Assembly: GCA_020627945.1 (NCBI GenBank)
Contig: JAHDFW010000014.1
Span: forward strand, 1 to 39,020
DNA: 39,020 nucleotides
Direction: 5' to 3'
From: Cytophagales bacterium
GTDB taxonomy: Bacteria; Bacteroidota; Bacteroidia; Cytophagales; JAHDFW01
Shown: piece after piece, positions 178-33,245 of the stretch
Position numbering within the stretch: position 1 is the first letter of the stretch
How the letters are laid out: every line of letters starts with the position of its first letter
Program-made: the position numbers and the translations under genes
The notes under the pieces: generated by a model
Told to the model about the DNA's origin: nothing
What the model saw: only the letters and a program-made list of their open reading frames with translations
The model's database searches: none

Positions 178-1570
178 TTAAATATCAAATCCAAAATCCA
201 ATTCTTCATCAAACTCAGATTCTTCGAGATTCGAAAACACATTAATTTGTGAAATTGTAACCTTAGGATTTGCCAATATTTCTTCAATAATTTGGTTAAT
301 GGACGATATCATTTGATCAATACTCTCTTCCTTAAACAAACCAATTTTGTATTCTATTTCGTAAACCAACTCAGCTCCTTCAAAAACATTGAACGTTAAA
401 TCAAATTTGGCTGTCGATCTACCTCTTTTCATAAAGCCTGCTTTAAGATCCAATTGATTCTCACCGCTATTCACTTCATTTTGATTAGCATTGGTTGTCA
501 CCATGCTTAGCAGCACATCAAACAGAGGGTTTCTAGTACCTTCGCGAGCTGGCTCGTAAACCTCTACCAACTTATCGAATGGATAACTGCCATACTCTGC
601 TGCCTCCAATATTGTATTTCGGACTTTCTTCAGAACGGACAAGAAACTTTCGTCTAATCCTATGTTATCTTTGAGCAAGAAGGTATTTACAAACAATCCT
701 ATTTGGTTTTCCAAATTTTCATGATCTCTTCCTGCAATGGTACTTCCAAAAACAATCTCTTGCTGACCTGTTAATTTGGCAAAAAACACTTTGAAGATCG
801 AAGTCATGAACGCATAAGTATTTACCTGATGACGTTTACTCAACTCTTGTATTTGATTATACTGCTCCTCTGAAAAACTAAAACGCTTCACGCCTGCCTC
901 CGAACTGGCTTCACTATTCCGTTCAAAATCCATTGGTATTTTTAACCGTGCTACCTTTTCGCCTAATTTATTTCCCCAATAAGATTTGAGTTGTTGTCCA
1001 TCTTCACCTACTAACAAATTATTATGCCATGATGCATAATCTTTATAGCTAATTTCCAACGGTTTAAGATCACTGGATCTTCCTGTTTTTATAGTGCTAT
1101 AAAGTTGTATAAGTTCATTAAACATTACACGCATCGACCATCCATCAGAAATAATATGATGCATATTGATCAACAAATAATTATCTTTCTCAGATACTCG
1201 AATCAACTTAAAACGATATAAAAAGTCTTCGCTTAAATTAAATTCATGAGATTCCGACAAAGCTATTTGCTCTTGAAGAAGATCTTTATCAACCTTCCTA
1301 TCGGTTAAATCAACAACATCTAACTCAAAAGGCACGTCATCAAAGACCTGTTGCATAGGAACATGATCCTTTTCGACAAACTTGGTCCTAAATACTTCAT
1401 GCCGTTCGATTAGTTGCTTGAAAGCCATTTTAAGTATCTCAACATCGATTATCCCAATTAATTCAATTGAAACGTAGATATTATATAAACTTGAAGGTTT
1501 ACCATGCATTTTATCTAACAACCACAATCTTTTCTGGGCATAAGACACATCATAATATTCCTGTTTATCA
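178..1570 (-). other. C-terminal condensation domain of NRPS-B plus acidic tail EESEFDEELDFGFDI
   Basis: YYDVSYAQKRLWLLDK...LINMHHIISDGWSMRVMFNEL...; the ORF ends with no A, T or TE after it. Confidence 0.9.
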
Positions 1571-4500
1571 AGCCTTTTAATATTTTCAAAATTCTTTTGA
1601 TCAAGGCTTCTAATTTTAGTCGCCAGCGTTTCGATGGTGGAATTTGAGAAGATATCAGCAAGAGTAACTTTAACATTAAAGGTTTTATGAATCTTGTTGG
1701 CAAGCACATTGGCCTTAAGCGAATGCCCTCCTAGTTCAAAAAAGTCCTGATCAACACCAACCTGCTCAAGATGTAATATTTCTTTCCAAATTGAGCTTAA
1801 ATTTTCCTCCGTCAAATTTGAAGCTGCTTTAAGTTCTAACGTTAAATTCAAAGAAGGCTTTGGAAGCTGCTTACGATCTATTTTAGCATTCGCTGAAAGA
1901 GTAAACTTTTCCATTCGAACTATTACGGCAGGAACCATATAATCAGGTAGCTTTTTATTAAGTGCTTCCTTAATCTCATTTTCCGAAACTGCACCACTAT
2001 AATACCCACAAATAAATAGCTCCTGAGAATCGTCTCTAAACGCTTTAACAGCTGCTTGTTTAACGCCATCAACATTTAAAATAGCATTCTCTATTTCACC
2101 TGTTTCAATTCTGTAACCTCGAATCTTAACTTGAAAATCCAAACGGCCTATAAACTCAACATTCCCGTCCGAAAGCCATCTTGCTAAATCACCTGTACGG
2201 TACATTCTTTCTTCTTCCACAAACGGACTAGGCACAAATTTCTCTGCAGTAAGTTCTGGACGTTTATAATAACCCTGCCCTACCGAATTACCAGCAACGC
2301 ATAGTTCTCCAAAAACACCTACTGGAACAGGATTAAGGTTGGAATCAACTATATAAAACTTATTATTACGTAATGGCTTCCCAATAGGAACGTAATTCAG
2401 TTTTTCGGATAACAGTTCTTTCGATTCAAAATGCGAGTTATCTATCGTACATTCTGTAACACCATAGCTATTAATGATTCTTAGTTTATCCCCAAATCGC
2501 TCAAGAATTCGGTTATAATGCGCAGTAGGAAAAGCATCAGCTCCCGCAACTACCATTTTCAATTTAGGAAGATCTATCTCGTTTTCATAAATGTAATCCA
2601 TCAATGGGACTATAAGTCCTGGAGTAGATTCAATGAATGAAACACTATAGGATTGAGCCAATTTTATTAATTCATCTGGCTCCAACTTATGCTCGTCTGG
2701 ACAGATAACCATTTTTCCTCCAACTGCCAAAGTACGAAGCATGTCTTGTGCAAATACATCAAATGCAAAACTTGCCAATTGCAAGACCGTATTCTCTTTA
2801 TTAAAATTATACTGATCAACTAACGCTCTTCCCAACTTAACCCAACTGCCATGCTGGTTTAACACTCCCTTAGGATTACCAGTTGATCCTGACGTGTATA
2901 TTACATAGGCTAAATCCTCTGAATTAACTTTTACTGGTGGTTGTTTGTCACTACAAGATTGCCAGCCATTATCGTCGATTAAAACAACCTTAGATTCGCC
3001 GATGAGTGACTTTAAAGAATCCTCTGTGATCGATAACTTTGAATCACAATCCTCTAATAAAAAATGTACTCTATCTTGTGGATATTTTGGATCTATTGGC
3101 AAATAACCCGCACCGGTTTTTAAAACGGCCAGAGAAGCAATTAAAACTTGCTCAGATCTATTCAGTAATATTGGAACTATCTCGCCTTTCTGAACTTCAA
3201 ACTCTTCGATCAAGTAATTAGCAAACTGATTTGAACTCTCATCTAGTTGACGATACGTTAAAGCCTTTTCTTTAAAAACAACTGCTATTGCATCCGGCGT
3301 TCTCTTAGCATGAGCCTGAAATTCATCCACAAATGACCCAATATTTTCAAATTCAACAGCGTTTGAATTAAATCCATTGACAACCAGCTGCCTTTCGTCT
3401 TCGGTAAGCAGGCTCATTTTTCCGATCTCTGCACTACCATTATTTGCTAGGCACTGCTCAAGCACTAGCATATAGCCCTTATGGAATTCTAAAATACGCT
3501 CTTCGTCAAACACTCCTGTCTGATACGACCAGTTCAATTCAAGTAAACCATTAATATTTCTATTACTAGCATTAATATGAATGGTTAACGCACTACTATC
3601 AGCACCAGGATGGGCATGCCTAATTTCAAAACGCTTTTCACGTACATCTGGATGCGTAATCAAATTAAGATCAAGGAGATAGTTTGGAGATTCACCTGTT
3701 AGTTTCCGAATATCTTCTGTTAATAAATCAAACGGATATTTTGAATGATTCTTGAGAATATTCTTGATATCACCCGCCAATTTTGATTCAAGGTTCAAGA
3801 ATGATTCATCATCTTCTAGTTTCGCTTTAACTGGCACTGTACTCACGTACATTCCGCAAGTATTCCTCTTCTTTTCAGAATCTCTACCGTGATTTACACT
3901 TCCAATCACCACTTCTTTACGATCTTCAACTTTTGATAGATAGACGGCTAGTACCGCCATCATTGTTCTATGAATTGAACTTTTATTCGTTTCAATAAAT
4001 TGCAAAAGTTGACTTCTAAGAGTATCAGGAACTGAAGTAACAATTGTTTTAGCCACCAAATCATTCCCGTTTGTTGAAGAAGGAATTACTCGTTTCATTG
4101 GTTCTGGTAACGGAAATAGATATTCCCTCCAAAACTTACCATCTGAATCAAATTCGGGCGATGCTAGGTATTCTCGTTCCTCCTTCAAATATTCTAAATA
4201 CGATGGAGTTTCAGAATTAGGCACTTCACCCTTCAGAAAAGCTTCATAAGCAACATGTACCAGATGTCCGACTAGGAAAATAGTCCAACCATCTCCCACT
4301 AAATGATGTACATTAAAATAATAACCAGACCTTCCTTCTGGAAGAAGAACTGGTTTCATTAAAAACAAGGTCTGGTCTTCTCCGTACAAAGGCATACAAC
4401 TTAATTCCTTGAGCCATTTTTCATAACCTTCTGGATCTTTGCTAAAATCTGCTAGTTCAAATTTCCAATCTGTTTCCTCTTCTATATATTGATATCTTTC

Positions 4501-7500
4501 TAAAGAGTGATCCATATGAATCGTTCTCAACCTAAGGCCATCGTTTGTGTTTATTACATGACGAATAGCTTTCTCCAGAATCTCAAAGTCCACAACATAA
4601 TCGTAAATCATTATAAATGGAGTATTATTAACTCCAGAATTACTGACAATCTGCTCAATGTTAAAAATTCTCTTTTGAGCGTGGGTTAAGCCATGTAATT
4701 GCTTATCATTTTTGCCTAAAACGATATCTCCAATCGACATAGTTGGAGCAGCTACCACTTGGTCCATCATATGAACAAAGGATTCAAACATGGATTGAAT
4801 TGTCTCTTCCTTAAAAAGTCCAGATTTATATTCAACCGCTAACTCTATGTTATCTTTACTTTCATAAGCATATAGAGTTATATCCATTTTCGAAACCGCT
4901 TTGATGTGTTCGAAATCCATGACAGCTTCATCGGTTGATGAAAATTGCATATTATCCTTCTCATACATGTTCTGAACCATCAGTCCAAAATCAGTAATGG
5001 CATTTCGTCCAGGTAGGATTTCCGCCTCCAATTGTTCCATTAGTAAATCAAAAGGGTAATCCTGATATTCATAGGATTTAAGTGCTGCAGTTCTTACTTC
5101 ATTTAAGAATTTATCAAACGACTTATGCGACTCTGGATAATTACGAAGAATAATTGTTCCCAATAAAAGCCCTACGGTTCTCTCAAACTGAAAATGATTT
5201 CTTCCAGCAATTGAAGTTCCTATCGCTACTTCCTTTTCTCCTGACATTTTACTTAGAAGAATATTGAAATTAGCCATTAAGAGCATGTACAAGGTTACAT
5301 TTTGATCTCGCAGCATATCATTGACTTTCTTGGTTCTCTTTGAACCTAGTCTAAATACATATCGCTTACCATTGTAATCCCCAAATTGTGATCTTGGAAA
5401 ATCAGTTGGAATAGACAATTGCTTGATAGGTGCAGCTAAATGTTTTAGCCAAAACTCCTCATGCTTATTAAATTGTCCTGATTCAAATCGTTGATGTTGC
5501 CATTCGGAAAAGTCTCTATATTGGGCTTCAACGGCTGGCAATTCTTCGTTTTTCCAAAGTGTAAAAAACTCATCTTTGATTACATTCATGGAACTACCGT
5601 CGAACACAAGGTGACTCACATCCACGATAAGATAAAATTGGTCCGATAATGTTTCAACCATTGTCGCTCGTAACAAAGGAGCTTTCCCAAGGTCAAATGA
5701 ACGAGCATAATTACTAAAAAAGGCATTTAAATCTGCTTTTTCTAACTTCTTATGCTTAAGCTCAAATCGCACATCTTTTGGGGCAATAATTTTCTGATAT
5801 ACATCTCCTTCTTCTTCAAAGAAACTTGTGCGTAATGCTTCATGCCTTTCAATAAGAGTGCTGATAATTTGCTCCACTTTCTCCAAATCAACATCTGCCC
5901 CAAGAGGGAGCATCATTGGGATGTTCATCAACGTACTTCCTGCATATTTTTGCTGAAATAAGTAAAAGCCTCTTTGCCCTGGAGATGCTAAATACTTTTC
6001 TTTCTCGCTTGCCCTTGTATAAGTAAATTCAGAAGCTACGGCATTATGGGAAAGGTATTCTGCTGTTTTTCGAATGGTAGCATTCTTAAAAAACTCAAGA
6101 ATTGGCAATTCGATTTTGAGTTCTTTTCTAATTGCACCAATTAAATGCATTGCTTTAAGCGAATGACCTCCCAGCTCAAAAAAGTCAGAATTAACACTAA
6201 TTTCCTCTGGTGAAACCTTTAGCGTTCTGGCGAAAATATTGCGCACCTTAATTTCTAGTTCTCCTTCCGCTTCCTCGAAAATAGATTTTTCTTGAGCGAT
6301 TAATTCAGTTCCAATGCTCTCTAAAGCACGATAATTCAACTTACCGTTTAGCGTCAGAGGAACTTCAGGAATTGAAACGAATCTAGAAGGCACCATGTAG
6401 TTCGGAAGTTTCGAAGCTAGGCTGGACTTTAACTCTTCTCCATTCAAATCCTCTTTCGTTGCCACCGCATATGCTGTGAGCTCTCCTCCATTCTGATTAG
6501 AATCGAAAACCACTATCGCTTTATCCACGTTTGCTAACTCCTCAAGAACTTGTTCAATCTCACCCAGTTCAATTCTATGCCCTCTAATCTTTACTTGTGT
6601 ATCCTTACGTCCCAAATATTCCAATTCACCTGATTTAGACCAGCGCACAAGATCTCCTGTTTTGTAAACTAACGAATCAGCATCGAATGGATTTTGGACA
6701 AATTTTTCTTGGGTTAGATCGGGACGATTCAAATAACCTTGAGCTAATTGTATTCCTGAAATATGTAATTCTCCAACAGCTCCGGTCGGAAGAAGGTTTA
6801 AATCTTGATCCAATACATATAATCCTGTATTCCAAACAGGCTTCCCTATCGGAACGACCGTATCCTCTTTTGAGGTTGCAAAGTGGGTAACATCTACAGT
6901 AGCCTCCGTTGGACCGTACAGGTTGTGTAAATCTGCATTCAACAACTGATGAAAACGTACTACCGTATCCACTTTCAATGCTTCTCCACTTGAGAAAACT
7001 TGTTTAATAGATTGTACCTCTTCAACCCCAGAATTTTCTAGATGATCAATAAACACATCTAACATACTTGGAACAAAGTGTAAGGTAGTCACCTTGTGCC
7101 TTTCGATAGTATCAACCAAAAGTTTAGGATCATAAACCGCCTCTTTATCGCAAACAACCAGTTTAGCTCCAACGATCAAGGTCATAAAGAACTCCCAAAC
7201 AGACACATCAAAAGCGTAATTCGTTTTTTGCAGGATTACATCTTCGTTCGAAATATCGTATTGCTCTTTCATCCAAAGAATTCTATTCACCACCCCTTTA
7301 TGTTGAATCAAAGTGCCCTTAGGATTACCTGTTGAGCCTGAGGTATAAATTACATAGGCTAGATCTTCTGAAGACAATGACACTTTATCAAAACCTTGTA
7401 AAGGATCTATATTCTCAAGATCATTTACAACCACACTGTTTATTCCCTGAGATAGTTTTGCATCAAGGATTGAATTCGTCACACAATGTTTTATACCACT

Positions 7501-10500: not shown

Positions 10501-13500
10501 GTTAGCAGTTACTTCAGTATTTAGCCCTGCTTCAATCTGAATTTCATGCCCCGAATAAATTACCTCCCTGTCAAGCTCTTTTTCCAACAACAAATAAGAG
10601 GTCTCACTATCGTGCAACATGTAGTTTATACGCTCTGTTGGATAATCTGGATCAATCGGTAAGTAAGCTGCACCTGCTTTTAATATGGCTAGGATACCTA
10701 TTACTAATCGTTCCGATCTTTCTAACATAAGTCCGACGAGGTCTCCTTTCCCAACTCCAGTAGAGGTCAAATGTGATGCAACTTTGTTAACCCGCTCATT
10801 CAATTCTTTGTAGGTGAGTTCAACTCCCTCAAAAGATAAGGCTGTTTTGTCTGAATGTTGTTCCGCACTTGATTCAAACAACTGAACTATATTCTTCGAG
10901 TTATCATATTCAAAATAAGATTGGTTAAAATCAGCGGACAGATACAATTCATCCTCGTCTGTTAATAACTTAATTTCATCTACAAGAAGATCTGGAACCG
11001 CGGTAACCTCACGAATAATTTTAGTGAAATGATCCTTAATTCCTTCAAACACCTTAGAAGTAAATAAATGAGGATCATAGGTAAACTCTACCTTAAACTC
11101 TTTAGCAGGGATTACACGGATATCAAAGTTGTATGAAGTCTGTTCAACTACGTCTACATTCTGAATTAAACCATCTTCTTTTGAGTTACCCGATTCCTCT
11201 ACTTCCTGCTCTAAAGGATAGTTTACGAAGATAATAATATGGTCAAACAGGTCCTGCTTCAATTCAGAGTTTGCCTGAATATCCACCAGAGGAGCAAAAT
11301 CATACTTTCCAGACTCTAATGCCCCTTCCTGTATAGATTTGACCAACTTATTAAAAGGTATATCACCTCCGGTTTTTACTCGAACAGGAATTGCATTAAT
11401 AAAAAGCCCGAGCATTTTCTCGATACCTTCTATTTCTGTTGGTCTACCAGAGACAATAGAACCAAAAGCAACATCATCCGAACCATTGTATTTACTCAGC
11501 AAAACTGACCATGCTGCTTGAAAAACGGTATTCAACGTAGCTTGATGCAAACTTGCAAACTCTTTAAGTTTGTTCGTTAACTCTTCATTTAAACTAAATT
11601 TGTACGTACCTCTTTTTATATCCGGGACAACTTCAGGTTTGAACATTGGAACCTGAGAAGGCGTTTGATATTCTTTGAGGTAATCTCTCCAATAGTTTAT
11701 TGCGGAAAGTTTATCCTGACGATTGTACCATTTTATGTATTCACTATATGGGTAGGTCTTCGGTAAATCTAATTCTCTTTCGTATAGTTTGGAATAATAC
11801 ATTTCGAAAAAATCAGAAATTATTATCCCCAGACACCAACCATCCATAATGATATGATGATAGCTCCAAATTAACTCGTATTCACTTTCGCTTATTTTAA
11901 CAAGATTAATTCGAAACAAAGAATCCTCGGAAAGTTCAAAACCACGCTGTTGATCTGAGGTTTTATGCTCATCTACTAAAACGTCAATAAATGCTGAGTC
12001 TTGATCTGAAATGTCATGAAGTTGTACTGGAGAAGTTCTCCCTTCCAAAATAACTTGACGAGGATTAGGAATGTTTTCATAGACAAATAAAGTTCGAAGC
12101 ACTTCATGTCTTTTATATAAGTCATCTAAACACTGCTGAATCAGGTTTACATCCAAACGCCCTTTGAGATTAAACGAAAGTTGTCGGTAATAAGGGTCTT
12201 CCGATTTATCCATTAAATAATGAAAAAGCATTCCTTCTTGCATCGCCGAAAGAGCATATACTTTTTCCAAATTTAAATCAGGAACAGTAGATTGTACGTG
12301 ACTTACAATTTTTTGATAATCAGCTAAATCAAGAGTTAAATCAGCAAAATCCGAAGGAGTCTTTTCTCTTTCTTGTTTTTCAGAACAATGCTCAATTATT
12401 TCAATCATTCCTGATTTGAAAGAATCTGCTAAAACATCAATTTGTTCTTGATCAAAATCCGTGGTTGCAAATCCAATATCAAAACTCAACTTACCACTTG
12501 CAATCATGCCTGTAATATTTAAGGCATAATTATTTTCAGAATTAGGACTTATTGAATTTCCAGTTGGCATTCCTGAAATCCCAAAAGCAGGCTCTTGCTT
12601 TTCGCCATCCTTTTTATTGGAAACTACACCGTCAAACTGCCCTAGGTAATTAAAATTAACTTCTGGTTTAAGGGTGAATTTGCAATCTTGCTTATGCTCG
12701 TCTGGAGTAAGGTATTTAATAATTTCATAACCAATTCCTTTATTTGGAATTCGTCTTAAGGCTTCTTTGGTTCTTTTTATATGGTTCCCAATTCCTTCTT
12801 GGCTATAACCTAAAACCACAGGGTACGAAGAGGTAAACCAACCTACGGTTCTGGTAACATCAACCTCATCTGAAATATTTTCACGGCCGTGTCCTTCCAA
12901 TCTAATTAACAAGTTCTCAAACCCATTCCACTTATTAAACCCAATGGACAATGCAGACATCAACAAATCATTAATCTCTGTGTTATAGGCATGATTCGTT
13001 TTTTCAAGAAGGCGTTGAGTCTCTTCTTTAGAAAGACTCACTTTCACCCGTTTAAGATCTTTAAGTTTGGATGGTTTATCTGATTTTTTCTCAAGTTTTG
13101 AGATTTCTTTTTGCTCTAAACCTTTCCAATAAGCAACTTCTTGAACAATAGTATTACTGCTGGCATATTCCTTCAGGGCATTTGCCCATTTTAGGAAGGA
13201 ACTAGTTTTATCTTGAAAAGAAATCTGCTCGCCATTGGTTAATTGCCCAAAAGCTATTTTCAAATCTTCTAAAAGGATTCTCCAAGACACCCCATCTACT
13301 ACAAGGTGATGTAATACGATTAAAACATGATCTCCTTCTTCCGTTTTAAAATATCCTATATGCAACAAAGGCCCATGCTCCAAATCAATTCCTGACTGAA
13401 TTTCAACAGCCTTTTCCCGAATTGCATCATGAACATTTTCTACATTGGTAAAATCACTTTCATGAATCGTATAAAAAGTTCCTTCTTCTGGTTTTAAAAT

Positions 13501-16254: not shown

Positions 16255-16300
16255 TTGAATACCTTTTCCTAAGTTGGTTTGTTGTTCTCTTAAAATATAA

Positions 16301-17905: not shown

Positions 17906-17967
17906 TCTTTCAACTTTTATGGTGGATAAGATTTCATTTATTTTCCACCTTTTAATTCACTTATTTT

Positions 17968-22300: not shown

Positions 22301-25300
22301 CGGTCCAACAACTGATCAAAGGCATTCTGCAATTTATTAACGTCCAATGCTCCAACCAAATTCATGACAACTGGCATATTATACGTAGTGTCAAGAGGTT
22401 GTAATTGGTTTAGAATATACATTCTACGTTGCGCGGCAGAAATCGGATAATGATCTCTTTTTTCTATCGGTTTAACGTCAAAGTGATCTCCTTGTCCTTT
22501 AGATTCTATTAATTCAGCAAGTTCTCGAATGGTAGGTGCGATAAAAATACTTCTAATCGGAATTTCAACATTCAAGTGTTTATGAACTGCACTGGCAACT
22601 CTTGTAGCTTTTAAACTATGTCCACCTATTTCGAAAAAATTATCATTTATACTAATCTGAGGTTTCGCCAAAACATCCTTCCAAATCGATTGAACAGTTA
22701 ATTCAATATTATTCCTAGGTGGTACATACTGATTATCTCCAGAACGACTTAAATCAACTTCGGGTAATGCTCTACGGTTAACTTTCCCACTTGCCGTGGT
22801 AGGAAATTGAGCAAGTACTACGAAATGAGAAGGAACCATATAATCTGGAAGCAATTCAAGCATAAATGCTCGCAAGTCCAGTGTTTCAATATCATCTTGG
22901 GATTGAACATAAGCAACTAGTTCTTGCTCATTATTAACCAAAACTTTAGTGGTTACTATCGCATTTTGAACTTTAGGATGATTTAAAAGTCTGCTTTCTA
23001 TTTCTCCCAGCTCAATTCTAAACCCTCTTACCTTAACCTGTTGGTCAATTCGACCCAAATATTCTATTTCTCCATTTGGTAAGAGTCTCCCTAAATCACC
23101 AGATCTATATAACCTAGAACTTGGGTTTAAAGGGTTTTCTACAAAACGTTGTGCAGTAAGTTCGTCTCGGTTCAGATATCCTCTACTCACTCCATATCCG
23201 CTAATACAAATTTCTCCAGGAATTCCGACAGGGAGAACATTTAAATCAGAATCCATTAAATAGGCTTCTAAAGAAGGAATTACTTTACCTATATTACTTT
23301 TACCTATTTTAATTTCTTCTTCGGTTATCTCTTTATATGTTACATGGACGGTAGTTTCTGTAATACCGTACATATTGATCAGCCTCGTATCTGGATATTT
23401 CTGATACCATCGATTCAAAGTAGCTGGTTGCAACGCCTCCCCTCCAAAGATCACGTAATTCAAGTTCAATTCAGATGCTTCATGGGCCAGCTCCTCTTCA
23501 ATCAAATTAACAAAAAGTGAAGGGATTTGATTTAATACTGTGACGTTTTCACGAATCAACAACTTTCTAAACTCAGTAGGGCTTGAGGCTATTTCTTTTG
23601 GCACAATTACAACCTTTCCACCTTTAAATAATGCTCCAAAAATTTCCCAAATTGAGAAGTCAAAACAGAATGAGTGAAACAATGTCCATGTATCATTTTC
23701 ATCAAAATGGAACTCATAACCCTGCTTACCAAATCCAGAATTAGATAATAAAGAGACTACATTACCATGTTCCACCAAAGTTCCCTTTGGTACTCCTGTA
23801 GAACCTGAGGTATAGATTACATACGCAATGCTTTCAGGAGACGAAATAGAAGTCAAATTAGTATTCGGAAGATCATTTACTCGATCCAAGTTTTCACTTA
23901 AATCCATCAACTCTACCGTTACCCCTTCAAGAGCTGGATGATCAGCCTGATTGGTAAGAATCAAATCTACATTACTATCCGTAATAAAATGATGAATTCT
24001 ATCTTTTGGATAGTTAGGATCAATTGGAACATATCCTGCACCACTTTTAAGTATTGCTAAGATTCCAACGATCATTTGTTCAGAACGATCCGTAAATAAC
24101 CCAATTAAGTCATCAGGTTGTACCGTTCTTTTACTTCTTATATAATGAGCAAATTGATTGGCTTTACTATTCAGTTCGCTATAAGTCAAACTTATATCAT
24201 CAAACTTAACGGCTATTTGATTTGGAAATGCTAGAACTTGCTGTTCAAAAATCTCATGAATCTGAACATTAGGATATGTAATTTCCTTAAGGTTTGAATG
24301 AGCAACTAAACTAAGCTGCTCAGAGTCAACTAATTTTAAGGCTTTAATGGAAGTAACTCCCGCCGTTATTTGATCCGAAACATTGAGAAGTCGATCTATC
24401 AAATCATAATCATGGAAGTACCGTTGATCAAAATCTAAAATAAGTTTAAGTCCATCAAAAGTCTCCCTAACCAATAACTGAACTTGATTTTCAGAATAAG
24501 TATTAATCGATTTCAGAGGAACATCTTCTCCCAACAGGTTCAATTTGAAGTACGTTTGATAATTGTAGTAAAACGAAATCTCTTCCTTTCCAATAATTTT
24601 ATTTTGGAGTAAAAAAGAAACATTTTGTCGTTCTCCAAGTTCTTTTTTCTGGGATTTAACGTAGTTAAAATAATCAAGCACTGAATCTGAATTATCCCAA
24701 CAACTGGCAGCAAAGCAGACTGGAATGCTATGATAGTAACAACCCATACCTTGCAATTGATCCTTTGTTCTCCCTCCTAATAATTCTCGAATAGTAAAAT
24801 CAGTTTCTGTTCGAGTATGAATCTTAATTAAAAGCGCAAATAAAGATTTAAAGTATAATGAAACTGATATTTTATTTGAACTGCAATACGACTCAATTGC
24901 AGAAATTTGGGATTCGGTCAAATACGTTTGACGAGAAATCAGATTATCTTCTTCAGAATTCAGTAAATGACCTTGATGATAAACATGCAGCGGCTCGACT
25001 TCAGCCAATTTATTTGTCCAGTATATTTCAGTTTCATGAGAATCAAAATGGTTGTTATGCCAATTTACATAGGAGGAAAACACATTATCAGTTGTGTAAT
25101 CAACCTCCCGATTCTCCATCAACGATTGATAAATTTCGGTGGCTTTCTCAAAAAACAATTTAAAGCTCCATCCATCAAAAATAACATGATGAGCACAAAG
25201 CAATGAAAAATACTGTTGATCACTATTCTTAATTAAAACATGACGTAGTAATTCCGTAGAATCAAAGTTATACGGCACCTTTGCCTCAGCCTCAATTAAT

Positions 25301-28300
25301 TTTTCAATTTCATTTATCGCAAGACCATCGACTTGAATTAATTTATGCTCAAGAGAGGTGTCCGTCTTAAAACCTTGATATATATCATTGTCCCGAACAA
25401 CAATTTTCGTTCTAAGTGAGGGGCTTAATGCTATAACTTTCTGCACGGCTTGTTGCCAAACTTCTACATTTAAATCTCGATTCAATTCTACATAAAACGC
25501 AAGGCTATGGGCAGCGTCTTCTGGATTAAGAATCGTATCTAAATAAAGATCTCTTTGTATGGTAGTCAGAGGTAGAAGTTCAGAATAATCACTCTTTGAA
25601 ACGCCCAAATGACTATACAAAGAGTCTTCTTGACCTGTGGAAAGTTTAAAATCCGACAACTCCTGATATGGTTGAGCAACTACTTCTTTAAGCAAATTTT
25701 TAAACCAATCCGCCATTAAGTTCACTTTCGACTCGTGGAATAGATCAGTGTTATAATTCATAAGGAAGGTAAGCCCTCCATTTGTTTCTTTAACGGTAAG
25801 CAATAAATCATTCCGCGCAACACCCGCCTCATGATTAATACCTTTGGATTGAACCCCTTCTAATTTTTCACTTTGCTGAAGTTGCTCTACCGTATTTAAA
25901 TTCTGCAACGCAAAGCTTGCGTTAATTAGGTTACCCGTTGTTCCTAATTCTGCAGCGCTATACTGCTCCAAAATCTTTTCGAACGGGTACATGTTATGAT
26001 CCAAAACATCCAGATAGCGATTCTTTACTTCATCTAGATATGTGGCAAATGATTTATTACCAGACGGATAATTTTTGATTCCCAACACTCTAACAAAATA
26101 CCCGACTAACTTTTCTAATTCTGGTTTATTCCTACCAGAAGTTATAGATCGAATGGTAACCTCTTCAGAACTACTAATTTTGGACAAAAACAGAGTATAA
26201 ATCGACATTAAAAGCACGTTCAACGTTACCTTCTGTGATTTTGCCAAGTCATATAAACCATTTACCAATTCATCTTCAATCCAAAAAGGTAAAGTCTTAC
26301 CAGGTTGCTCCAAAGCCATACCAGAGCGCATTTTATCGTAAGGAAGATCTAAAGAACGAATTCCTCCATCGAAATGTTTATCCCAGAATACTTTTAATTC
26401 TCCAATGGTCTTATCGCTTAATTGTTCGTTTTCCCAAGCAACAAAATCCATAAACTGGAATTCAGTAGGGCTATAATCCAATTCAGATTTACCAGAACTA
26501 TAATTATTATACAATTCAACGGCTTCACTAATCATTAGTCCCATTGACCATCCATCACTTATGATATGGTGCATTGCGTACATTAACACATTGCGTTGTT
26601 CGGGAAGTACAACCAGAGATGCTCTCAACAAAGGTGGAGTACTGAGGTCAAAAGGAGTTCTTGCATTGGCGTCCAAATGCTCTATCAATAGCTCTTCAGC
26701 ATTAGTACGACTTGATAAGTCTACTACGCTCAATTCAAACGGTACCGCTTCATTTATTTTTTGAAAAGGTTCTCCTTCCAATTCAAGGAAGCTTATTCGT
26801 AATGCCTCATGACGTTTAATTATTTCATTAAAGGCCTGTTTAAAAGCCTCAACATCCAAATCTCCGTTCAATACATTCTTACCAGAAAGTATATAAGTAG
26901 TGCTCCCACCCTGAACTTGATCAGCTAACCAAAGTTGTTTCTGAGCAAAAGAAAGTGGATAGTGTTCCTGCTTAGAAATTTTCTTAATTTGATCATAGCG
27001 GCTCGTATTTTTACCAGATAGGAGTTTTGCTAAGCCTTTAATGGTTGGGTTTCCGAATAGCTCACGTAAGTTAATCGGTAATTCTAAGTTTTTCTGCACT
27101 AAAGAGACAAAGGCTCCAGCATGTAGGGAATGTGCACCTAATTCAAAAACATTATCATTTCTTCCGATCTTAAAATCGGCCTGATTTATTTTTCCTAAAA
27201 CCTTAACCCACAACTGCTCCAATTCTTTCTCCAAACCTTCTTCTGGAGCTTCATAATTCACAGCATTCTCTTGAAGTTCCTCAGGCTCTGGTAACGCTTT
27301 ACGATCAATTTTTCCATTAGCAGTAATAGGAACCTGATCAATTCTTATAATTACACTCGGAATCATGTAATCAGGTAAATGTTCACCTATTAGCCTTTTA
27401 ATCTCATCATTGCTTATAGATTCACTTTCTACAACATATGCACATAGAAATTTCGAATGATTATTATCTCCTTTGGCAAGTACAATTGCTCTATGAACCT
27501 GAGGTATTAATTGTAATTGATTTTCAATCTCGCCAAGCTCGACTCTAAATCCCCTGATTTTAACCTGAAAATCTTTCCTTCCCAAGAATTCCATGTTCCC
27601 GTCAGGCATCAATCTACCTAAATCACCAGTTTTATACATCATTGCATCTGGTAGTCGAGAATATGGGTCTTTTACAAATTGGGCACTTGTTTTCTGTTCG
27701 TCATTGGCATAACCTCGCGCAACTCCAACTCCTCCAATATGTAATTCTCCAGCAACACCTTTAGGAACTGGGTTTCCAAAATCATCTAAAATATAGAAGA
27801 AATTATTGTCAATAGGCACTCCATACGGAATACTTATTTGATCCTCCTCCACAGTTTCGATCGGATAGTAATTTGACCATACTGTCCCTTCAGTAGCACC
27901 ACCTAAACTAATATTTTGGGCATTTGGGAAGTATTTCTTTATTCTATTTGAAAGTGTAACAGGAATCCAATCACCACTCATAAAAACTAACCTCAGGTCG
28001 GTTTGTTGGTAATCTGTTTCAGAGGTTTCAATCATATCTACCAAATAATTCATGGTAGTAGGAACTGAGTCCCAAAACGTGATTTTCTCCTTTATCATCA
28101 AAGACATTAGTCTTTCTGGATCTTCAACTTGATCTTTTTTGGCAATGACAACCGTTGCTCCGCATGCTAAGGTTCCAAAAATATCATACACCGATAAATC
28201 AAAACACATTGAAGTAATAAACAACAATCTATCACCTTGCCCTACGTCAAATTTCTTATTAACCCAGTTTATAAGATTTACCGCCGAATGATGTTCGATC

Positions 28301-31300
28301 ATTACACCTTTTGGCCTACCTGTGGAACCGGAAGTATAGATAGTGTAAGCTAAGTCTTGGCTATTCTTGATTAAATTAGGGCTTTCTGAAGAACTAATTT
28401 TAATCGATTCCGAATCGAGACGAATTCCCTGAACCTTTTCTTTCATATCACTGATCACTTGATAATCGTGATCAACAAGAATTTTAGAAGCGTTAGAATT
28501 CTCAAGAATATATTTCTGACGATCAATTGGATAGGTAGGGTCAATTGGAACATAGGCACCACCTGCTTTTAAAATACCGTACATAGCTATGATCATATCA
28601 AAGCCTCTGTCCGTAATAACACCTATATTCTCGGCATTCTCAACTCCAAGATCAATAAGATAATTTGCAACTTGGTTTGCTTTTGTTTCTAACGCCTGAT
28701 AAGTAAGGCTTTTTCCATCTTGAGTCAACGCAATAGCATTTGGAGTTATTTGAACTTGTTCTTCAAACAACTGATGCATCGACTTTTCTTTCGGATAATC
28801 TACAATCGTATTATTAAATCCATACAAAATTTTCTCTCGATCATCCTCTTCGAGAATCAAATTGGTATTAAACTCATTTTGTAGGTTTTCGACGAATTGC
28901 TGCAGTATATTTAAGTATAATTGGATTGCATATTCTACATCACCATCATGGAAGAAGGCCTTAGCATATTTAACTTGGACTCTTAATCTCCCTCCCGTTT
29001 TATCGACCTCAAAATCAAATAACGTATTCGTCATTTGATTCGCTTGAGTTCTTTCAACTTCATCTGTTAATCGAAATTCAGCAGTGGACAACTGCTCAGA
29101 AAGTTTTGCTTCGTTTCGAACATGAAAATCAGTAAAATTGAAAATACAATCAAAGATTGGGTTTTCTGCAGAAGCCTGTGAATCTACCAGTGTTGAAATT
29201 TCGACTAAATCAATTTCATGTTGCTTAACCTCGACCAAGTAATTTTGAACTTCACTAAGTAAATCCGCATATGTCTTAACCTGCGCAAAATCGACACGAA
29301 TAGGTATCGTGTTTAAGAAACATCCAAGAATTTTTTCCCCATCTTCTATTTCTGGCCGATGATGCGAAACAACTCCAGTAACTACATCCTTTTCGGACGT
29401 AATGAGATGCATCAAATATAGGTATGCACTTAAATAAAGAGCTTTAGCAGCGACTCTATTTACCTTAACAACCTCATCCAAGGATTGTATAAATTGTGCA
29501 CCTTCAAACCGAGTGGCATAAATCATCCCCAATTCCTGATTAAGTTTTTTACCAGAAATATTGAACGGAAGTTTATTCCTAGTATAGCCAGCAAGCAATT
29601 GTTTCCAATACTCCTGATTATCCAGATTCGCTTTTTTTGCTAAATTAAGTGCACAAAAGTCTTTATATGAATGTTTAAGGTCTTCTAGGCCATTAAGCTC
29701 ATTCAAAGCTGGGTTAGCACATAAATTTACTAACTCCGTACTGAACGCATTAACACTCCAACCATCAAGTATTGCATGATGAACGCTCCAAATAATTTGA
29801 TAAGTTGTATCATCCGTTTTAAATGCAGTTATGTACCATAAAATATCCCCGTCAAACGAGTATCGTTTTTGGGTATCAGCCGACATATATGCATTGATTT
29901 GCCCTTGTTGCTCAACTTTCGACAACTTACTTAAATCCTTAATCTCAACGGGCAAATCACCAAGTTGGACCACTACTTTCGTTGGTTCTGAAAGTGCATG
30001 GAGATAAAATCTCGTGCGAAGGATATCGTGTTTTCGCACCAACAATTGTAAGGCATGTTCAAAAACTTCTACATTCGGAATATCCAACGCATACACAAAC
30101 TGGTCGTAGTACACAGGCTCTTCGGGACGTAAAATAGAACTATAAATCATCCCAGCTTCTATAGAACTTAACGGATAAAGGTCGTCATATTGCTTAGGCA
30201 AGACCTCTAAATTTTGTTCAACCGATGCAATTCGTGCCTTAAATTCCTCAATCTCAGAATAACCTAACTCAAGTTGATCCTGAATCGAAAATTGTACATT
30301 ATTAGGTTCTTCAAGTGCAATTGATAATTCTCTAATTGTAGGATATTTGAACACCAAATGTGCGGATAGGTCAATTTCTGCTTGTTGCTTAACATCAATT
30401 ACAACCTTAATAACTTTGAGTGAATCTCCTCCCAAAAGGAAAAAATCATCATCGATACCAATTTTAGGGTTTTTAAGAACATCCTCCCAAACTTTAACCA
30501 ACGCTCGTTGCAATTCAGATTCTGGAGCTATGTATTTCTGACGAACCCCTAACGAGTTTTCAATTGGGTCTGGTAACGCTTTTTTATCAATCTTACCGTT
30601 GGACGTCAATGGAATTTGGTCAATTTCAACAAAATAAGATGGCACCATATGCTTTGGAACCTGTTCGTTGAGAAACGAAATTAATGCTTTAGAATCAGGT
30701 AAATCTTCACCTATAAGGTATGCAACTAATTGTGGCTCATCATCTAGTAAGGTCATTGCTAACACCACACATTCCTTAATTGCGGAATGTTTGGTAAGGT
30801 GATTTTCAACCTCCCCTAATTCAATACGAAATCCTCGAATTTTAACCTGAGCGTCATTTCTTCCAAGATATTCAAAATCTCCATTTGGTAGTTTTCTGGC
30901 AAGGTCTCCAGATTTATACCAGCGTTGAGAAGAATCATATGGGCTAACAATAAAACGTTCTCCAGTAAGTTCTTCCCTGTTTAAATATCCGCGAGCAACT
31001 CCATCTCCAGCAACATACATTTCACCTGGAATACCATCAGATAATAATCTTTTATTCTCATCCAGAACATACAATTGAAGAGTAGGTATTGCAACTCCAA
31101 TATTACTAACGTTGTTATCTATTTCCGTTTTACCAATTTCCTTATATGTAACATGTACAGTTGTTTCGGTAATACCGTACATGTTGATCAGTTTGGTAGA
31201 AGGATATTTCTTGTTCCATTCCTTCAACTTTCCTGGAGACAGCGCCTCGCCACCAAAAACAACATAGCGTAAACCTAAATCTGCATCAGTACTAATGGTG

Positions 31301-32778
31301 AGCTCCTGATGGATTAGATTATAAAAGGCACTTGGAGTCTGATTAAGTACGGTAACTCCACTAGACTCCATGAGTTCCAAAAACAGGGCAGGACTCTGAG
31401 CTTCTTCCTTTGATAAAATAACCAACTGACCGCCATACAAAAGAGCCCCATACATTTCCCAAACCGAAAAATCAAAGCAGTAAGAATGAAACAAAGTCCA
31501 TACATCACTACTTGAGAATTCAAATAATGGCTGATCTGTAAAAAATAATCGCACCACATTTCTGTGCTCAACCATTACTCCCTTAGGTTTACCCGTAGAC
31601 CCTGATGTATATATAATGTAGGCTAAATCTTGCGGATCATTAACTTGAGCAGGGTTTTCTTTAGAAAAAGTACTTAAATCGGAATTATCAGTAAAAATTA
31701 GTTCCACAGGGGAATCCACCTGATCAACTAAATCTTCTTTAGTAATTAGAAGTTGAACTTTGCTGTCACTTAGAGTATAGTCAATTCTTTCTTTTGGATA
31801 ATCTGGATCAATAGGAACATATGCTCCACCAGCCTTTATGATACCTAAAAGAGAAACGATCATATCAAACGATCGATCTTGCAAAACCCCTACTAAATCA
31901 TTTCTATCAACACCTCTATCTCTTAAAGCATGAGCCAATTGATTGGCCTTTTGATTTAACTGTTCATAGGTAAAAGGATTCCCTTCAAAAATAAGTGCTA
32001 CAGAATTCGGATATTGAGCCGCTCGCTTTTCAAATATTGAAACTATTGTATCCGATTCTGGGTAACCTACATTCAATTCTTGCTGATCAGCGTACATTTT
32101 CTGATCGTCAAATAGTAGAATATCTTCTATTTTAACATCCAAATCTTCTTTTACGCTTGCCCAAATCGCGTTGACATGATTACAAAGGTTCTCGACAAAT
32201 CCAGAACCAAACAAAGAAGGATTATATGCTATTTCTAATACTCCTGCATTACTGAATTGAAATATTAAATCACAGGAAGAAGGTATAACATCTTTCTTAT
32301 TAACCCCCTCATAAACAACTGCTACTTCCGGGAGTTTTTCATCCAAATCATTGGATAGGGTTACAAGGTCAAAGTCTTGATGTTTAGTAGAGTTGAGGAT
32401 TGTTGTTTTAGATTGCTGTAATAATTCTCGAAAAGTAAAACCCTTAGAGATATCGGAACCAATCAAGACCAGCTTAGGACTAACAATTTCCTCTTTAAGC
32501 TTGAAAGAAGATGATAACAAACATATATTTTGATGCGAAGTGTATCGATAAAATAAAGCTTGAATAGTTGCTATTGAAAACACCGACTGTGCAATCGGAG
32601 ATTTCGCAATTTCCGTGGCAATGTTTTTAAAAGAATCAAGTTCGCACTTATAAACCTTCAAAACTTGATTTTCAAGAGGGTTACTAAAGCGTAATGCAGT
32701 ATAATCGACTTTATCCCCAGTCAATACTTTGCTCCAAAACTCCTTGCTAACCTGATCTTTTATCAAATCTCCCCCCAT
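17968..32778 (-). CDS. Non-ribosomal peptide synthetase NRPS-A (4936 aa): halfC-A(Thr)-T-C-A(Cys-like?)-T-C-C-A(Thr)-T-C-A(Ala)-T-C
   Basis: Four YTSGSTG..PKG adenylation cores, carrier motifs LGGDSLKV, LGAHSLHA, IGGHSLKA and LGGHSLMA, and condensation motifs HHAILDGWS, HHIISDGWS, HHVIFDGWS, HHIISDGVS and HHIISDGWS. No TE. Confidence 0.97.
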   Translation of the reverse strand: MGGDLIKDQVSKEFWSKVLTGDKVDYTALRFSNPLENQVLKVYKCELDSFKNIATEIAKSPIAQSVFSIATIQALFYRYTSHQNICLLSSSFKLKEEIVSPKLVLIGSDISKGFTFRELLQQSKTTILNSTKHQDFDLVTLSNDLDEKLPEVAVVYEGVNKKDVIPSSCDLIFQFSNAGVLEIAYNPSLFGSGFVENLCNHVNAIWASVKEDLDVKIEDILLFDDQKMYADQQELNVGYPESDTIVSIFEKRAAQYPNSVALIFEGNPFTYEQLNQKANQLAHALRDRGVDRNDLVGVLQDRSFDMIVSLLGIIKAGGAYVPIDPDYPKERIDYTLSDSKVQLLITKEDLVDQVDSPVELIFTDNSDLSTFSKENPAQVNDPQDLAYIIYTSGSTGKPKGVMVEHRNVVRLFFTDQPLFEFSSSDVWTLFHSYCFDFSVWEMYGALLYGGQLVILSKEEAQSPALFLELMESSGVTVLNQTPSAFYNLIHQELTISTDADLGLRYVVFGGEALSPGKLKEWNKKYPSTKLINMYGITETTVHVTYKEIGKTEIDNNVSNIGVAIPTLQLYVLDENKRLLSDGIPGEMYVAGDGVARGYLNREELTGERFIVSPYDSSQRWYKSGDLARKLPNGDFEYLGRNDAQVKIRGFRIELGEVENHLTKHSAIKECVVLAMTLLDDEPQLVAYLIGEDLPDSKALISFLNEQVPKHMVPSYFVEIDQIPLTSNGKIDKKALPDPIENSLGVRQKYIAPESELQRALVKVWEDVLKNPKIGIDDDFFLLGGDSLKVIKVVIDVKQQAEIDLSAHLVFKYPTIRELSIALEEPNNVQFSIQDQLELGYSEIEEFKARIASVEQNLEVLPKQYDDLYPLSSIEAGMIYSSILRPEEPVYYDQFVYALDIPNVEVFEHALQLLVRKHDILRTRFYLHALSEPTKVVVQLGDLPVEIKDLSKLSKVEQQGQINAYMSADTQKRYSFDGDILWYITAFKTDDTTYQIIWSVHHAILDGWSVNAFSTELVNLCANPALNELNGLEDLKHSYKDFCALNLAKKANLDNQEYWKQLLAGYTRNKLPFNISGKKLNQELGMIYATRFEGAQFIQSLDEVVKVNRVAAKALYLSAYLYLMHLITSEKDVVTGVVSHHRPEIEDGEKILGCFLNTIPIRVDFAQVKTYADLLSEVQNYLVEVKQHEIDLVEISTLVDSQASAENPIFDCIFNFTDFHVRNEAKLSEQLSTAEFRLTDEVERTQANQMTNTLFDFEVDKTGGRLRVQVKYAKAFFHDGDVEYAIQLYLNILQQFVENLQNEFNTNLILEEDDREKILYGFNNTIVDYPKEKSMHQLFEEQVQITPNAIALTQDGKSLTYQALETKANQVANYLIDLGVENAENIGVITDRGFDMIIAMYGILKAGGAYVPIDPTYPIDRQKYILENSNASKILVDHDYQVISDMKEKVQGIRLDSESIKISSSESPNLIKNSQDLAYTIYTSGSTGRPKGVMIEHHSAVNLINWVNKKFDVGQGDRLLFITSMCFDLSVYDIFGTLACGATVVIAKKDQVEDPERLMSLMIKEKITFWDSVPTTMNYLVDMIETSETDYQQTDLRLVFMSGDWIPVTLSNRIKKYFPNAQNISLGGATEGTVWSNYYPIETVEEDQISIPYGVPIDNNFFYILDDFGNPVPKGVAGELHIGGVGVARGYANDEQKTSAQFVKDPYSRLPDAMMYKTGDLGRLMPDGNMEFLGRKDFQVKIRGFRVELGEIENQLQLIPQVHRAIVLAKGDNNHSKFLCAYVVESESISNDEIKRLIGEHLPDYMIPSVIIRIDQVPITANGKIDRKALPEPEELQENAVNYEAPEEGLEKELEQLWVKVLGKINQADFKIGRNDNVFELGAHSLHAGAFVSLVQKNLELPINLRELFGNPTIKGLAKLLSGKNTSRYDQIKKISKQEHYPLSFAQKQLWLADQVQGGSTTYILSGKNVLNGDLDVEAFKQAFNEIIKRHEALRISFLELEGEPFQKINEAVPFELSVVDLSSRTNAEELLIEHLDANARTPFDLSTPPLLRASLVVLPEQRNVLMYAMHHIISDGWSMGLMISEAVELYNNYSSGKSELDYSPTEFQFMDFVAWENEQLSDKTIGELKVFWDKHFDGGIRSLDLPYDKMRSGMALEQPGKTLPFWIEDELVNGLYDLAKSQKVTLNVLLMSIYTLFLSKISSSEEVTIRSITSGRNKPELEKLVGYFVRVLGIKNYPSGNKSFATYLDEVKNRYLDVLDHNMYPFEKILEQYSAAELGTTGNLINASFALQNLNTVEQLQQSEKLEGVQSKGINHEAGVARNDLLLTVKETNGGLTFLMNYNTDLFHESKVNLMADWFKNLLKEVVAQPYQELSDFKLSTGQEDSLYSHLGVSKSDYSELLPLTTIQRDLYLDTILNPEDAAHSLAFYVELNRDLNVEVWQQAVQKVIALSPSLRTKIVVRDNDIYQGFKTDTSLEHKLIQVDGLAINEIEKLIEAEAKVPYNFDSTELLRHVLIKNSDQQYFSLLCAHHVIFDGWSFKLFFEKATEIYQSLMENREVDYTTDNVFSSYVNWHNNHFDSHETEIYWTNKLAEVEPLHVYHQGHLLNSEEDNLISRQTYLTESQISAIESYCSSNKISVSLYFKSLFALLIKIHTRTETDFTIRELLGGRTKDQLQGMGCYYHSIPVCFAASCWDNSDSVLDYFNYVKSQKKELGERQNVSFLLQNKIIGKEEISFYYNYQTYFKLNLLGEDVPLKSINTYSENQVQLLVRETFDGLKLILDFDQRYFHDYDLIDRLLNVSDQITAGVTSIKALKLVDSEQLSLVAHSNLKEITYPNVQIHEIFEQQVLAFPNQIAVKFDDISLTYSELNSKANQFAHYIRSKRTVQPDDLIGLFTDRSEQMIVGILAILKSGAGYVPIDPNYPKDRIHHFITDSNVDLILTNQADHPALEGVTVELMDLSENLDRVNDLPNTNLTSISSPESIAYVIYTSGSTGVPKGTLVEHGNVVSLLSNSGFGKQGYEFHFDENDTWTLFHSFCFDFSIWEIFGALFKGGKVVIVPKEIASSPTEFRKLLIRENVTVLNQIPSLFVNLIEEELAHEASELNLNYVIFGGEALQPATLNRWYQKYPDTRLINMYGITETTVHVTYKEITEEEIKIGKSNIGKVIPSLEAYLMDSDLNVLPVGIPGEICISGYGVSRGYLNRDELTAQRFVENPLNPSSRLYRSGDLGRLLPNGEIEYLGRIDQQVKVRGFRIELGEIESRLLNHPKVQNAIVTTKVLVNNEQELVAYVQSQDDIETLDLRAFMLELLPDYMVPSHFVVLAQFPTTASGKVNRRALPEVDLSRSGDNQYVPPRNNIELTVQSIWKDVLAKPQISINDNFFEIGGHSLKATRVASAVHKHLNVEIPIRSIFIAPTIRELAELIESKGQGDHFDVKPIEKRDHYPISAAQRRMYILNQLQPLDTTYNMPVVMNLVGALDVNKLQNAFDQLLDRHDSLRTSFKIVEGKPVQVIIEGINVEIENYDSTKEDARRIVKDFIRPFDLSSASLFRVGLIKLGEEEFVLMTDMHHIISDGVSMQILVQEFLDLYEGKELEPVKLTYKDYANWQNEWSKSDKMQKQESFWMDQFSGEIPVLNLHPDYSRPPVQTFDGAQIYDSFSESESLALKEIVKQSGSTLYILLLAIYNVTLAKYSNQEDIVVGSPIAGRSHSDLEHIIGMFVNTIALRNYPNKDLTFSNFLNQVRENTLEVYDNQTYQFEDIVEKLDVVRDLSRNPLFDTMFIFQNLRDQEKKPRSIKGLEISRFGTDVTTSKFDLTLEAWENADQLSFSLTYATKLFKSESIERFAEHFKQVAREIIQNPDLKLASVQLLSDNEKKLVLEDFNNTYLEYDHSLNVLGLFKKQVKNNPEKIALHFEDQQITYQNLDEKSNGLANVLLDEGVTKATILPIMVDRSVDMVVALLAILKAGAAYVPVDPKYPADRIKYMISNSDAQFILCSEAYAGNLEEVDVKTIVLEQLIEKADKSTNEISNLEIEASQLAYVIYTSGSTGLPKGVSITHGNLTSLLHWALDEFSSLKADTLFAATSYSFDLSIYELFYGLVSGKKIRLLQDGTEIPKYLSSETKILLNTVPSVVLQLVESQCDLSNVVGINMAGEPIPLKIKEQLDLDNIVVRNLYGPSEDTTYSTHYLIKDVDARQVVGKPIANTKAFVLDSDQNLLGIGIPGELYLSGESVTQGYLNNDQLTAERYVTYNHISDERMYKTGDLVRWLESGDLEYLGRIDQQVKIRGFRIELEEIQNQLEALNNIDQAVVIVSENGSRDKQLGAYFTSSKSSVEIGEIRSLLGNKLPSYMIPMFFMQLGEIPRTPNGKIDKKALPKGSFETLSKLVVEPETKLQATIAEIWSEVLGVEKVGIEDNFYELGGHSLMAMQVVLRISSQTSLDVQLSDLFHAKTVKELAERLENKGNDSVSVELTTIDKADYYDVSHAQKRLWFLAQLNEANNVAYNMPAAFILTGDLDTEAFKKAFGSLVERHEILRTVFIQVDGQPKQQVNDFKGFEINELDLTGSNDPQEEAKKMASSNAQTPFDMEKGPLMRVTLAKLEDSKYLFLFAMHHIISDGWSLDLLIKEVITFYNYHTGVTSKIPADLSLHYKDFAAWHNALLEQDEQKVHEAYWKEKMSGSLQTLKLPYDKLKDKNTGMQGGKLSFQLDENITSKIREIARLNSTTPYNVVLGSLYILLYKLTSQNDLIIGSPVAGRIDEKLENQIGYYLNTLALRTVIDSNDSFESLLNNTIATVLEAQDHQIYPYDKLVSDLKIKNPHLSNGLFNVGFTWGVEQVNTESSKETIASDLTMQRFGDRQDIAKSDLWFYGSDYGKSIGLFVVYNTGLFEGQKMQMHMDLFKTIINKVLEDPKAIVSEVIKTEQNKPKRKSKRQRGGFDFD
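20222..20660 (-). other. NRPS-A A4 specificity core, predicted Ala
   Basis: Extracted code D-L-Y-N-N-A-L-T-Y, matching the DL(F/Y)NNALTY Ala type as I recall it. Confidence 0.65.
23333..23820 (-). other. NRPS-A A3 specificity core, predicted Thr
   Basis: Extracted code D-F-W-N-I-G-M-V-H, identical to the Thr signature. Confidence 0.85.
24350..25640 (-). other. Second domain of tandem C-C in NRPS-A (HHVIFDG, divergent C-lobe)
   Basis: LLPLTTIQRDLYLDTILNPEDAAHSLAFYVEL...LLCAHHVIFDGWSFKLFFEKA...LLGGRTKDQLQGMGCYYHSIPVCF...; follows another C domain with no A or T between them. Confidence 0.8.
25650..26985 (-). other. First domain of tandem C-C in NRPS-A (HHIISDG)
   Basis: HYPLSFAQKQLWLADQVQGGSTTYI...LMYAMHHIISDGWSMGLMISEAV. 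Confidence 0.85.
27865..28350 (-). other. NRPS-A A2 specificity core, uncertain (Cys-like)
   Basis: Extracted code D-L-Y-D-F-S-L-V-W. Resembles Cys-type DLYNLSLIW and has the GGATE variant of A5, but with D at 278 and F at 299. Confidence 0.35.
31147..31615 (-). other. NRPS-A A1 specificity core, predicted Thr
   Basis: Extracted code D-F-W-N-V-G-M-V-H, one conservative change from the Thr signature DFWNIGMVH. Confidence 0.8.
32120..32778 (-). other. N-terminal truncated condensation domain (C-lobe only) of NRPS-A
   Basis: About 220 aa, KEFWSKVLTGD...FSIATIQALFYRYTSHQNICLLSSSF...FTFRELLQQSKTTILNSTKHQDFDLVTLSNDL, is C-lobe-like with no HHxxxDG lobe. Confidence 0.8.
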
Positions 32779-33030: not shown

Positions 33031-33042
33031 CTTCTAAATAAG

Positions 33043-33126
33043 TACAAGAGGTGGGACTTGAACCCACACGACCCGAAGGTCACAAGATTTTAAGTCTTGC
33101 GTGTCTACCAATTCCACCACTCCTGC
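33043..33126 (-). tRNA. tRNA-Leu (anticodon TAA)
   Basis: Acceptor GCAGGAG/CTCTTGT with G:U pairs, anticodon loop CTTAAAA, long variable arm TGACCTTCGGGTCG, T arm GTGGGTTCAAGTCCCAC. Confidence 0.93.
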
Positions 33127-33172
33127 AACCGCTAAAATCAACCTTCAACATACAAATGGTTAATCTTAGTAG

Positions 33173-33245
33173 AGCGAAACACGGGGCTCAAACCCGCGAC
33201 CTCCACCTTGGCAAGGTGGCGCTCTATCAACTGAGCTAGTTTCGC
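33173..33245 (-). tRNA. tRNA-Gly (anticodon GCC)
   Basis: Acceptor GCGAAAC/GTTTCGC, D arm, anticodon stem-loop CCACCTTGCCAAGGTGG, T arm GCGGGTTTGAGCCCCGT. Confidence 0.95.

Follow-up and report, generated by a model that had tools for sequence, protein, structure and literature searches.

The two nonribosomal peptide synthetases (NRPSs) encoded in the window, that is, in the whole 39,020-base stretch analyzed here, which is one complete contig (C131), probably work as a single assembly line in which NRPS-B precedes NRPS-A. The two proteins would be connected by a module split between them, with a half condensation domain as the putative dock of a C-terminal tail, and the line would include hydroxylation of a carrier-bound residue and release by a terminal condensation domain. 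The synthetases are two long open reading frames, located on the minus strand as are all window features given with coordinates below: NRPS-B (17968-32778, 4936 aa), which is the first gene of the cluster, and NRPS-A (178-16254, 5358 aa), with a 534-aa gene between them. Domains were called with HMMs built from the A, T and C domains of the source genome itself, and Pfam agreed with the resulting layouts of both proteins. Using hC for a condensation (C) domain of which only the C-terminal lobe is present and C* for a full C domain with the HHIISDG motif that closes a protein, NRPS-B reads hC-A-T-C-A-T-C-C-A-T-C-A-T-C* and NRPS-A reads hC-A-T-E-C-A-T-C-A-T-C-C-A-T-C*. The terminal C* domains of NRPS-B (18016-19353) and NRPS-A (220-1560) are both of full length and have kept the catalytic motif intact (HHIISDGWS). 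These calls confirmed the statement of the earlier note that each NRPS opens with an A domain lacking a working C domain and closes with a full C domain lacking a partner A domain. The split module proposed here, C* | hC-A-T, consists of the C domain with full catalytic motif that ends NRPS-B and the A-T without a working C domain that starts NRPS-A.

The half domains were recognized by several methods, with differing clarity. In NRPS-A (hC at 15544-16248; HMM, Pfam and AlphaFold2 model), the match of the first ~240 aa to PF00668 began only at profile position 194 (51.9 bits), while the strongly diverged C-lobe of NRPS-B (32098-32763; HMM and Pfam) gave a weak match from profile position 299 on that was below the cut-off (20.4 bits). 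In an AlphaFold2 model of NRPS-A residues 1-832 (mean pLDDT 79), the secondary structure of the hC was well predicted ahead of the A domain, and in Foldseek the whole model aligned over about 680-880 columns to solved C-A(-T) structures. The hC sequences formed one clade in the C-domain tree (97/84), with long branches. A frameshift origin was rejected, as only 6 and 18 codons of open frame lie 5′ of the two NRPS starts; upstream of NRPS-A there are 46 nt and then the hydroxylase gene, and upstream of NRPS-B there are tRNA genes. Both synthetases also contain a tandem C-C pair (24316-26967 in NRPS-B, called by HMM; 3391-6000 in NRPS-A, called by HMM and tree), and each member of the NRPS-A pair is sister to the matching member of a tandem pair on C74, another NRPS contig of the same genome. 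The idea that the hC is a cut-down second C domain of such a pair was dismissed because the tree separates the two, though the branches are long.

The cluster is bordered by tRNA genes on both sides. A tRNA-Met gene (2-75) lies directly behind NRPS-A at the contig end, and tRNA-Leu and tRNA-Gly genes (33042-33245) lie upstream of NRPS-B, with a gene for S-adenosylhomocysteine hydrolase beyond them. The position of tRNA genes on either flank may mark an insertion site. Pfam detected no C-terminal thioesterase or reductase in either NRPS and no thioesterase in the remaining genes of the window. A missing gene past the contig end was considered and set aside, given that the end is the tRNA-Met gene and that the assembly holds no overlapping neighbor contig, the first 55 bases of the contig end having no second occurrence in it; there may be a further gene past that end.

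We found at least six more NRPS loci in the source genome (G000; 3.87 Mb in 227 contigs, completeness 88.6%), namely C198, C152, C74, C148, C158, C17 and a locus, here J3, obtained by joining contigs C130, C125 and C204 through exact 55-base overlaps. Genes starting with hC occur on C74, on C148 and at J3 genes 1 and 3. Ends in C* with a tail of the kind described below occur on C74 and at both J3 gene 2 and J3 gene 3, and C17 has one of slightly looser form (EDGFNF). In J3, gene 2 ends in C* with the tail FGFDF and is followed after 42 bases by gene 3, which starts with hC; this is a direct parallel, within the same genome, to the junction proposed between NRPS-B and NRPS-A. Since C74, which consists of a single NRPS gene, and J3 also begin with hC and end in C*, this arrangement is characteristic of the lineage rather than a chance feature of a single locus. 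In C74, a free-standing carrier protein gene (PP-binding) is located directly 5′ of the hC-start NRPS (L026:4004-4396). J3 genes 1 and 2 (L027:1-16328, C130) are separated by a C|A split of another appearance, with neither tail nor hC, a gap of 41 bases and a slightly short C domain in gene 1, which could be a genuine split, the result of a frameshift or an artifact of assembly.

A search with the hC profile identified hC-start genes in further genomes of the order. An hC gene lies directly behind a gene ending in C* in G213, G028, G054, G004, G050 and G270, and G095 has this junction twice within one co-directional operon. Besides J3, C* | hC-A-T at adjacent co-directional genes was also seen in Fulvivirga, Chitinophaga and Pedobacter. 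At the hC junctions identified, the gene ending in C* directly precedes the hC gene, or the only genes in between code for hydroxylases or type II thioesterases. The putative trans C/A-T module is well supported; it recurs across Bacteroidota and is not peculiar to the NRPS-A/NRPS-B pair. Three genomes (G054, G004 and G050) carry a two-gene system, A-T-C* followed by hC-A(MT)-T-reductase, in which two modules share a sole C domain, carried by the upstream protein. If these systems are functional, their one C domain must act in trans on the hC-A-T protein. Such single-C relatives lend architectural support to condensation in trans by C* on hC-A-T, and the proposal of the earlier note that the terminal C domain of one protein could serve the first A-T of another gained support from these recurring junctions, including those of the single-C systems. 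A different kind of C-end was seen in L081:2-7162, L086:2675-6742 and L135/L082, where an AFLESMFNL-like tail precedes a gene whose initial A domain (codes DARH...) has no hC in front of it; these ends represent a possible second type of C|A split.

The C* proteins share a C-terminal tail made up of a variable linker and then alternating hydrophobic residues, the penultimate position being Asp, Asn, Ser or Thr (e.g., FDFDF, FNFNF, VEFDI, IEFDL, IKFNF, LEIDL and FGFDI). The tail of NRPS-B (17971-18015) ends in GGFDFD and that of NRPS-A (181-219) in DFGFDI. In its strict form the pattern was present at 10 of the 12 C | hC ends with directly adjacent genes, compared with 4 of 236 non-NRPS open reading frames and 1 of 51 other NRPS ends. 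Where the downstream NRPS gene could be tested in Bacteroidota, hC came next in all 15 tailed cases and in 4 of 17 untailed ones. The corresponding numbers were 11/11 versus 2/8 in the discovery set, which includes the NRPS-B/NRPS-A pair of the window (one-sided Fisher test, 0.001), and 4/4 versus 2/9 in held-out named genomes (0.021); because the pattern was chosen on the discovery set and several junctions and rows are orthologues, these values overstate independence, and the held-out one, which is modest, is the fair one. The tail was also found on C-ends with no hC gene downstream (NRPS-A, C74 and J3 gene 3). In the model of the C* domain of NRPS-B alone the tail was disordered, as would be expected of a docking peptide.

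The tail and the hC probably constitute a docking type not yet described, as opposed to an exotic product logic. Our literature searches found no description of such a strand-like tail and no match on terminal C domains in Bacteroidota or on initiation modules with truncated C domains. A review, in the part of its text available to us, names two NRPS docking classes and does not cover a C|A split (PMC9113145). The same text describes SLiM docking peptides, in which about the last five residues form a β-strand on an N-terminal β-hairpin domain (PMC9113145). As in the known SLiM/β-hairpin pairs (rhabdopeptide Kj12, taxlllaid and tubulysin; TubC_N), the C-termini in the window are short, conserved, hydrophobic and strand-like, behind a variable linker; however, known SLiMs sit behind carrier or E domains and pair with a β-hairpin domain, whereas the tails in the window come after a C domain and the receiving protein opens with a C-lobe remnant before the A domain. 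TubC_N had no Pfam match in NRPS-A or NRPS-B, whose N-termini run straight into the C-lobe. By analogy, the tail may work in the manner of SLiM docking without belonging to the SLiM/β-hairpin type. A broader reading is attractive but somewhat short of an even bet: C* tail and hC lobe may be an undescribed docking class that splits NRPS modules at the C|A border widely in Bacteroidota and that, in the window, C74 and J3, leaves whole lines with matching open ends, such that the last and first subunits could dock as well. NRPS engineering makes use of the C|A border as a cut site, and natural proteins that are cut there and bring their own connector would be useful engineering parts. A genuine tail-hC pair would allow many Bacteroidota clusters with an orphan-looking terminal C domain to be read correctly and would change gene-to-product predictions.

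The gene between the two synthetases (16301-17905, 534 aa) encodes a CmlA-like diiron β-hydroxylase with a CmlA_N domain and a metallo-β-lactamase fold. Its homology to CmlA is full-length (structure 4jo0, E 1.7e-122 across residues 6-522), and its family suggests a carrier-bound amino acid as the substrate. With this protein as the query, a scan of named genomes returned 80 loci. Four of them have the same gene order as the window, C*, hydroxylase and hC (L156, L184, L214 and L164, from Chitinophaga sp. GbtcB8, a Chitinophagaceae MAG, a Bacteroidetes MAG and Fulvivirga sp. M361). In Fulvivirga sp. M361, the hydroxylase is accompanied by an apparent type II thioesterase gene between the C* and hC genes, and in Chitinophaga sp. 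GbtcB8 and the Chitinophagaceae MAG the hC protein is hC-A-T-E-C-A-T, resembling the start of NRPS-A. A second CmlA-like hydroxylase gene of the source genome, on C148 (L030:10299-11891), seems broken, with four stops within the match and a 404-aa open reading frame left.

The likely direction of the hand-off, from NRPS-B to NRPS-A, is favored because junctions elsewhere follow gene order and because the hydroxylase-interrupted order recurs. The contention of the earlier note that gene order leaves the product order unfixed was, for the same reasons, not borne out as stated. The symmetry on which it rested stood in part: both terminal C domains have their nearest relatives at junctions, strongly in the case of NRPS-A, whose C* has the junction C* of J3 gene 2 as its sister (100/98), and weakly in the case of NRPS-B, whose C* groups (80/90 and 91/74) with junction C domains of L214, L184 and L156, located before a hydroxylase and an hC gene, and of G270. 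The C-domain trees do not contradict the order B to A. Given the kinship of the NRPS-A C* with a known junction C*, the reverse order, and hence a ring, has to be kept in view. If NRPS-A handed on to the hC of NRPS-B and the C* of NRPS-B released the product, one could also understand why the latter C* pairs with the final C* of C74 in one tree (98/95) and why the last C* of J3 has the same Trp-type motif. A Trp after the KFDL position is common to the terminal C domains of NRPS-B, C74, J3 gene 3 and one of G095, and a release-type C* subgroup defined by it had first suggested the order A to B; we abandoned this subgroup because the relative with the same residue in G270 directly precedes an hC gene. 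As the gene order itself is B then A and the C*-hydroxylase-hC order is found elsewhere, we regard the reverse order as improbable. We consider it similarly doubtful that the line is closed, with the C* of NRPS-A also docking on the hC of NRPS-B so that the peptide passes to the first module and the line runs more than once. The docking-type tail of NRPS-A would suit such a ring, as would the fact that three clusters of the genome (C131, C74 and J3) all begin with hC and end in C*. However, there is no thioesterase or other releasing domain such as known iterative NRPSs use, no relative outside the genome has a complete ring, and C148 likewise begins with hC yet does not end in C*.

Alternatively, the two proteins may be separate synthetases, in which the hC is a remnant of loading modules and the terminal C domains serve only to release or cap the peptide of their own protein. 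C74, with its lone NRPS gene, fits this reading, and so does C148, which starts with hC in a cluster without any C* and which ends in an E domain followed by a ~240-aa extension resembling a thioesterase; an hC start alone is consequently no proof of a trans partner. The recurrence of C* | hC at adjacent genes, the co-occurrence of tail and hC, and the dipeptide-reductase systems, which need a trans reaction, make this explanation an unlikely one. Partners could also come from other loci, with a C* from elsewhere (e.g., C17) serving the hC of NRPS-B or the C* of NRPS-A serving an hC elsewhere. The earlier note had held that NRPS genes elsewhere in the genome supplying the missing partners would speak against the pairing, and this applies in part: several of the additional loci begin with hC or end in C*, which makes a partner from elsewhere conceivable. 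No NRPS gene lies behind the C* that closes C17, and C148 has no C* in front of its hC. On the other hand, C17 and C158 are truncated by contig ends in an incomplete assembly of many contigs, and all other junctions found sit inside one cluster, which leaves exchange between loci with a low probability.

In the preferred order, B then A, NRPS-B would bring the chain as far as its fourth module, and its C* would join the peptide to the aminoacyl group loaded by the hC-A-T of NRPS-A. The hC, lacking the catalytic half, would have been kept as the structural face of the A domain and is probably the docking site of the strand-like tail of the partner, in the way that a SLiM adds a strand to a β-hairpin domain. 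The hydroxylase would work on a carrier-bound residue. The C* of NRPS-A, with neither an acceptor module nor a thioesterase in the cluster, would most likely release the peptide by cyclization, amine capture or hydrolysis; its tail hints at docking and its position at release. We take the specificity codes to indicate, as a rough guess, Thr, an unclear residue, Thr, Ala, an Asp/Asn-type residue, Gly, Ser and a basic residue. The first A domain of NRPS-B (30565-32040) has the code DFWNVGMVHK, presumably Thr-type by the published specificity code, and the first of NRPS-A (13990-15483) has DLTKLGHIGK, which we assume to be Asp/Asn-type. The second residue (DLYDFSLVWK) is perhaps Cys-like and the last (DVQEVGSIDK) presumably basic and Orn-like. 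An epimerization (E) domain follows the first T domain of NRPS-A (12361-13698), and its place behind the Asp/Asn-type module indicates a D residue. The C domain after the first Thr module of NRPS-B (28837-30183, HHAILDGWS) falls in a clade with domains of C148 and J3 that likewise follow Thr modules, and it is perhaps a dehydrating (modified-AA) C domain.

Comparison with known systems showed partial resemblances. In fungi, a terminal condensation (CT) domain at the NRPS end replaces a thioesterase for release; the C* domains of NRPS-A and NRPS-B agree with it only in position and in the absence of a thioesterase. Cryopeptin and chitinopeptin synthetases are, like the window, Bacteroidota NRPS clusters with a CmlA-like hydroxylase, and for cryopeptin modified-AA C domains and a proposed iterative use of modules are reported, although the available portions of these papers describe no C|hC split or C-terminal tail, and it is by these descriptions that we set the systems apart (PMC12181424, PMC9248904). 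The two-gene reductase systems of G054, G004 and G050 show the A-T-C-A-T-reductase order, but a cut at the C|A border divides them between two proteins, with hC added and a methyltransferase inside the A domain. That order is also that of AusA (aureusimine), a dipeptide synthetase consisting of a single A-T-C-A-T-R protein. Early interruptions of A domains were observed in L083:8140-12708, by a methyltransferase insert, and within the A domain at L027:1-6219 (minus strand).
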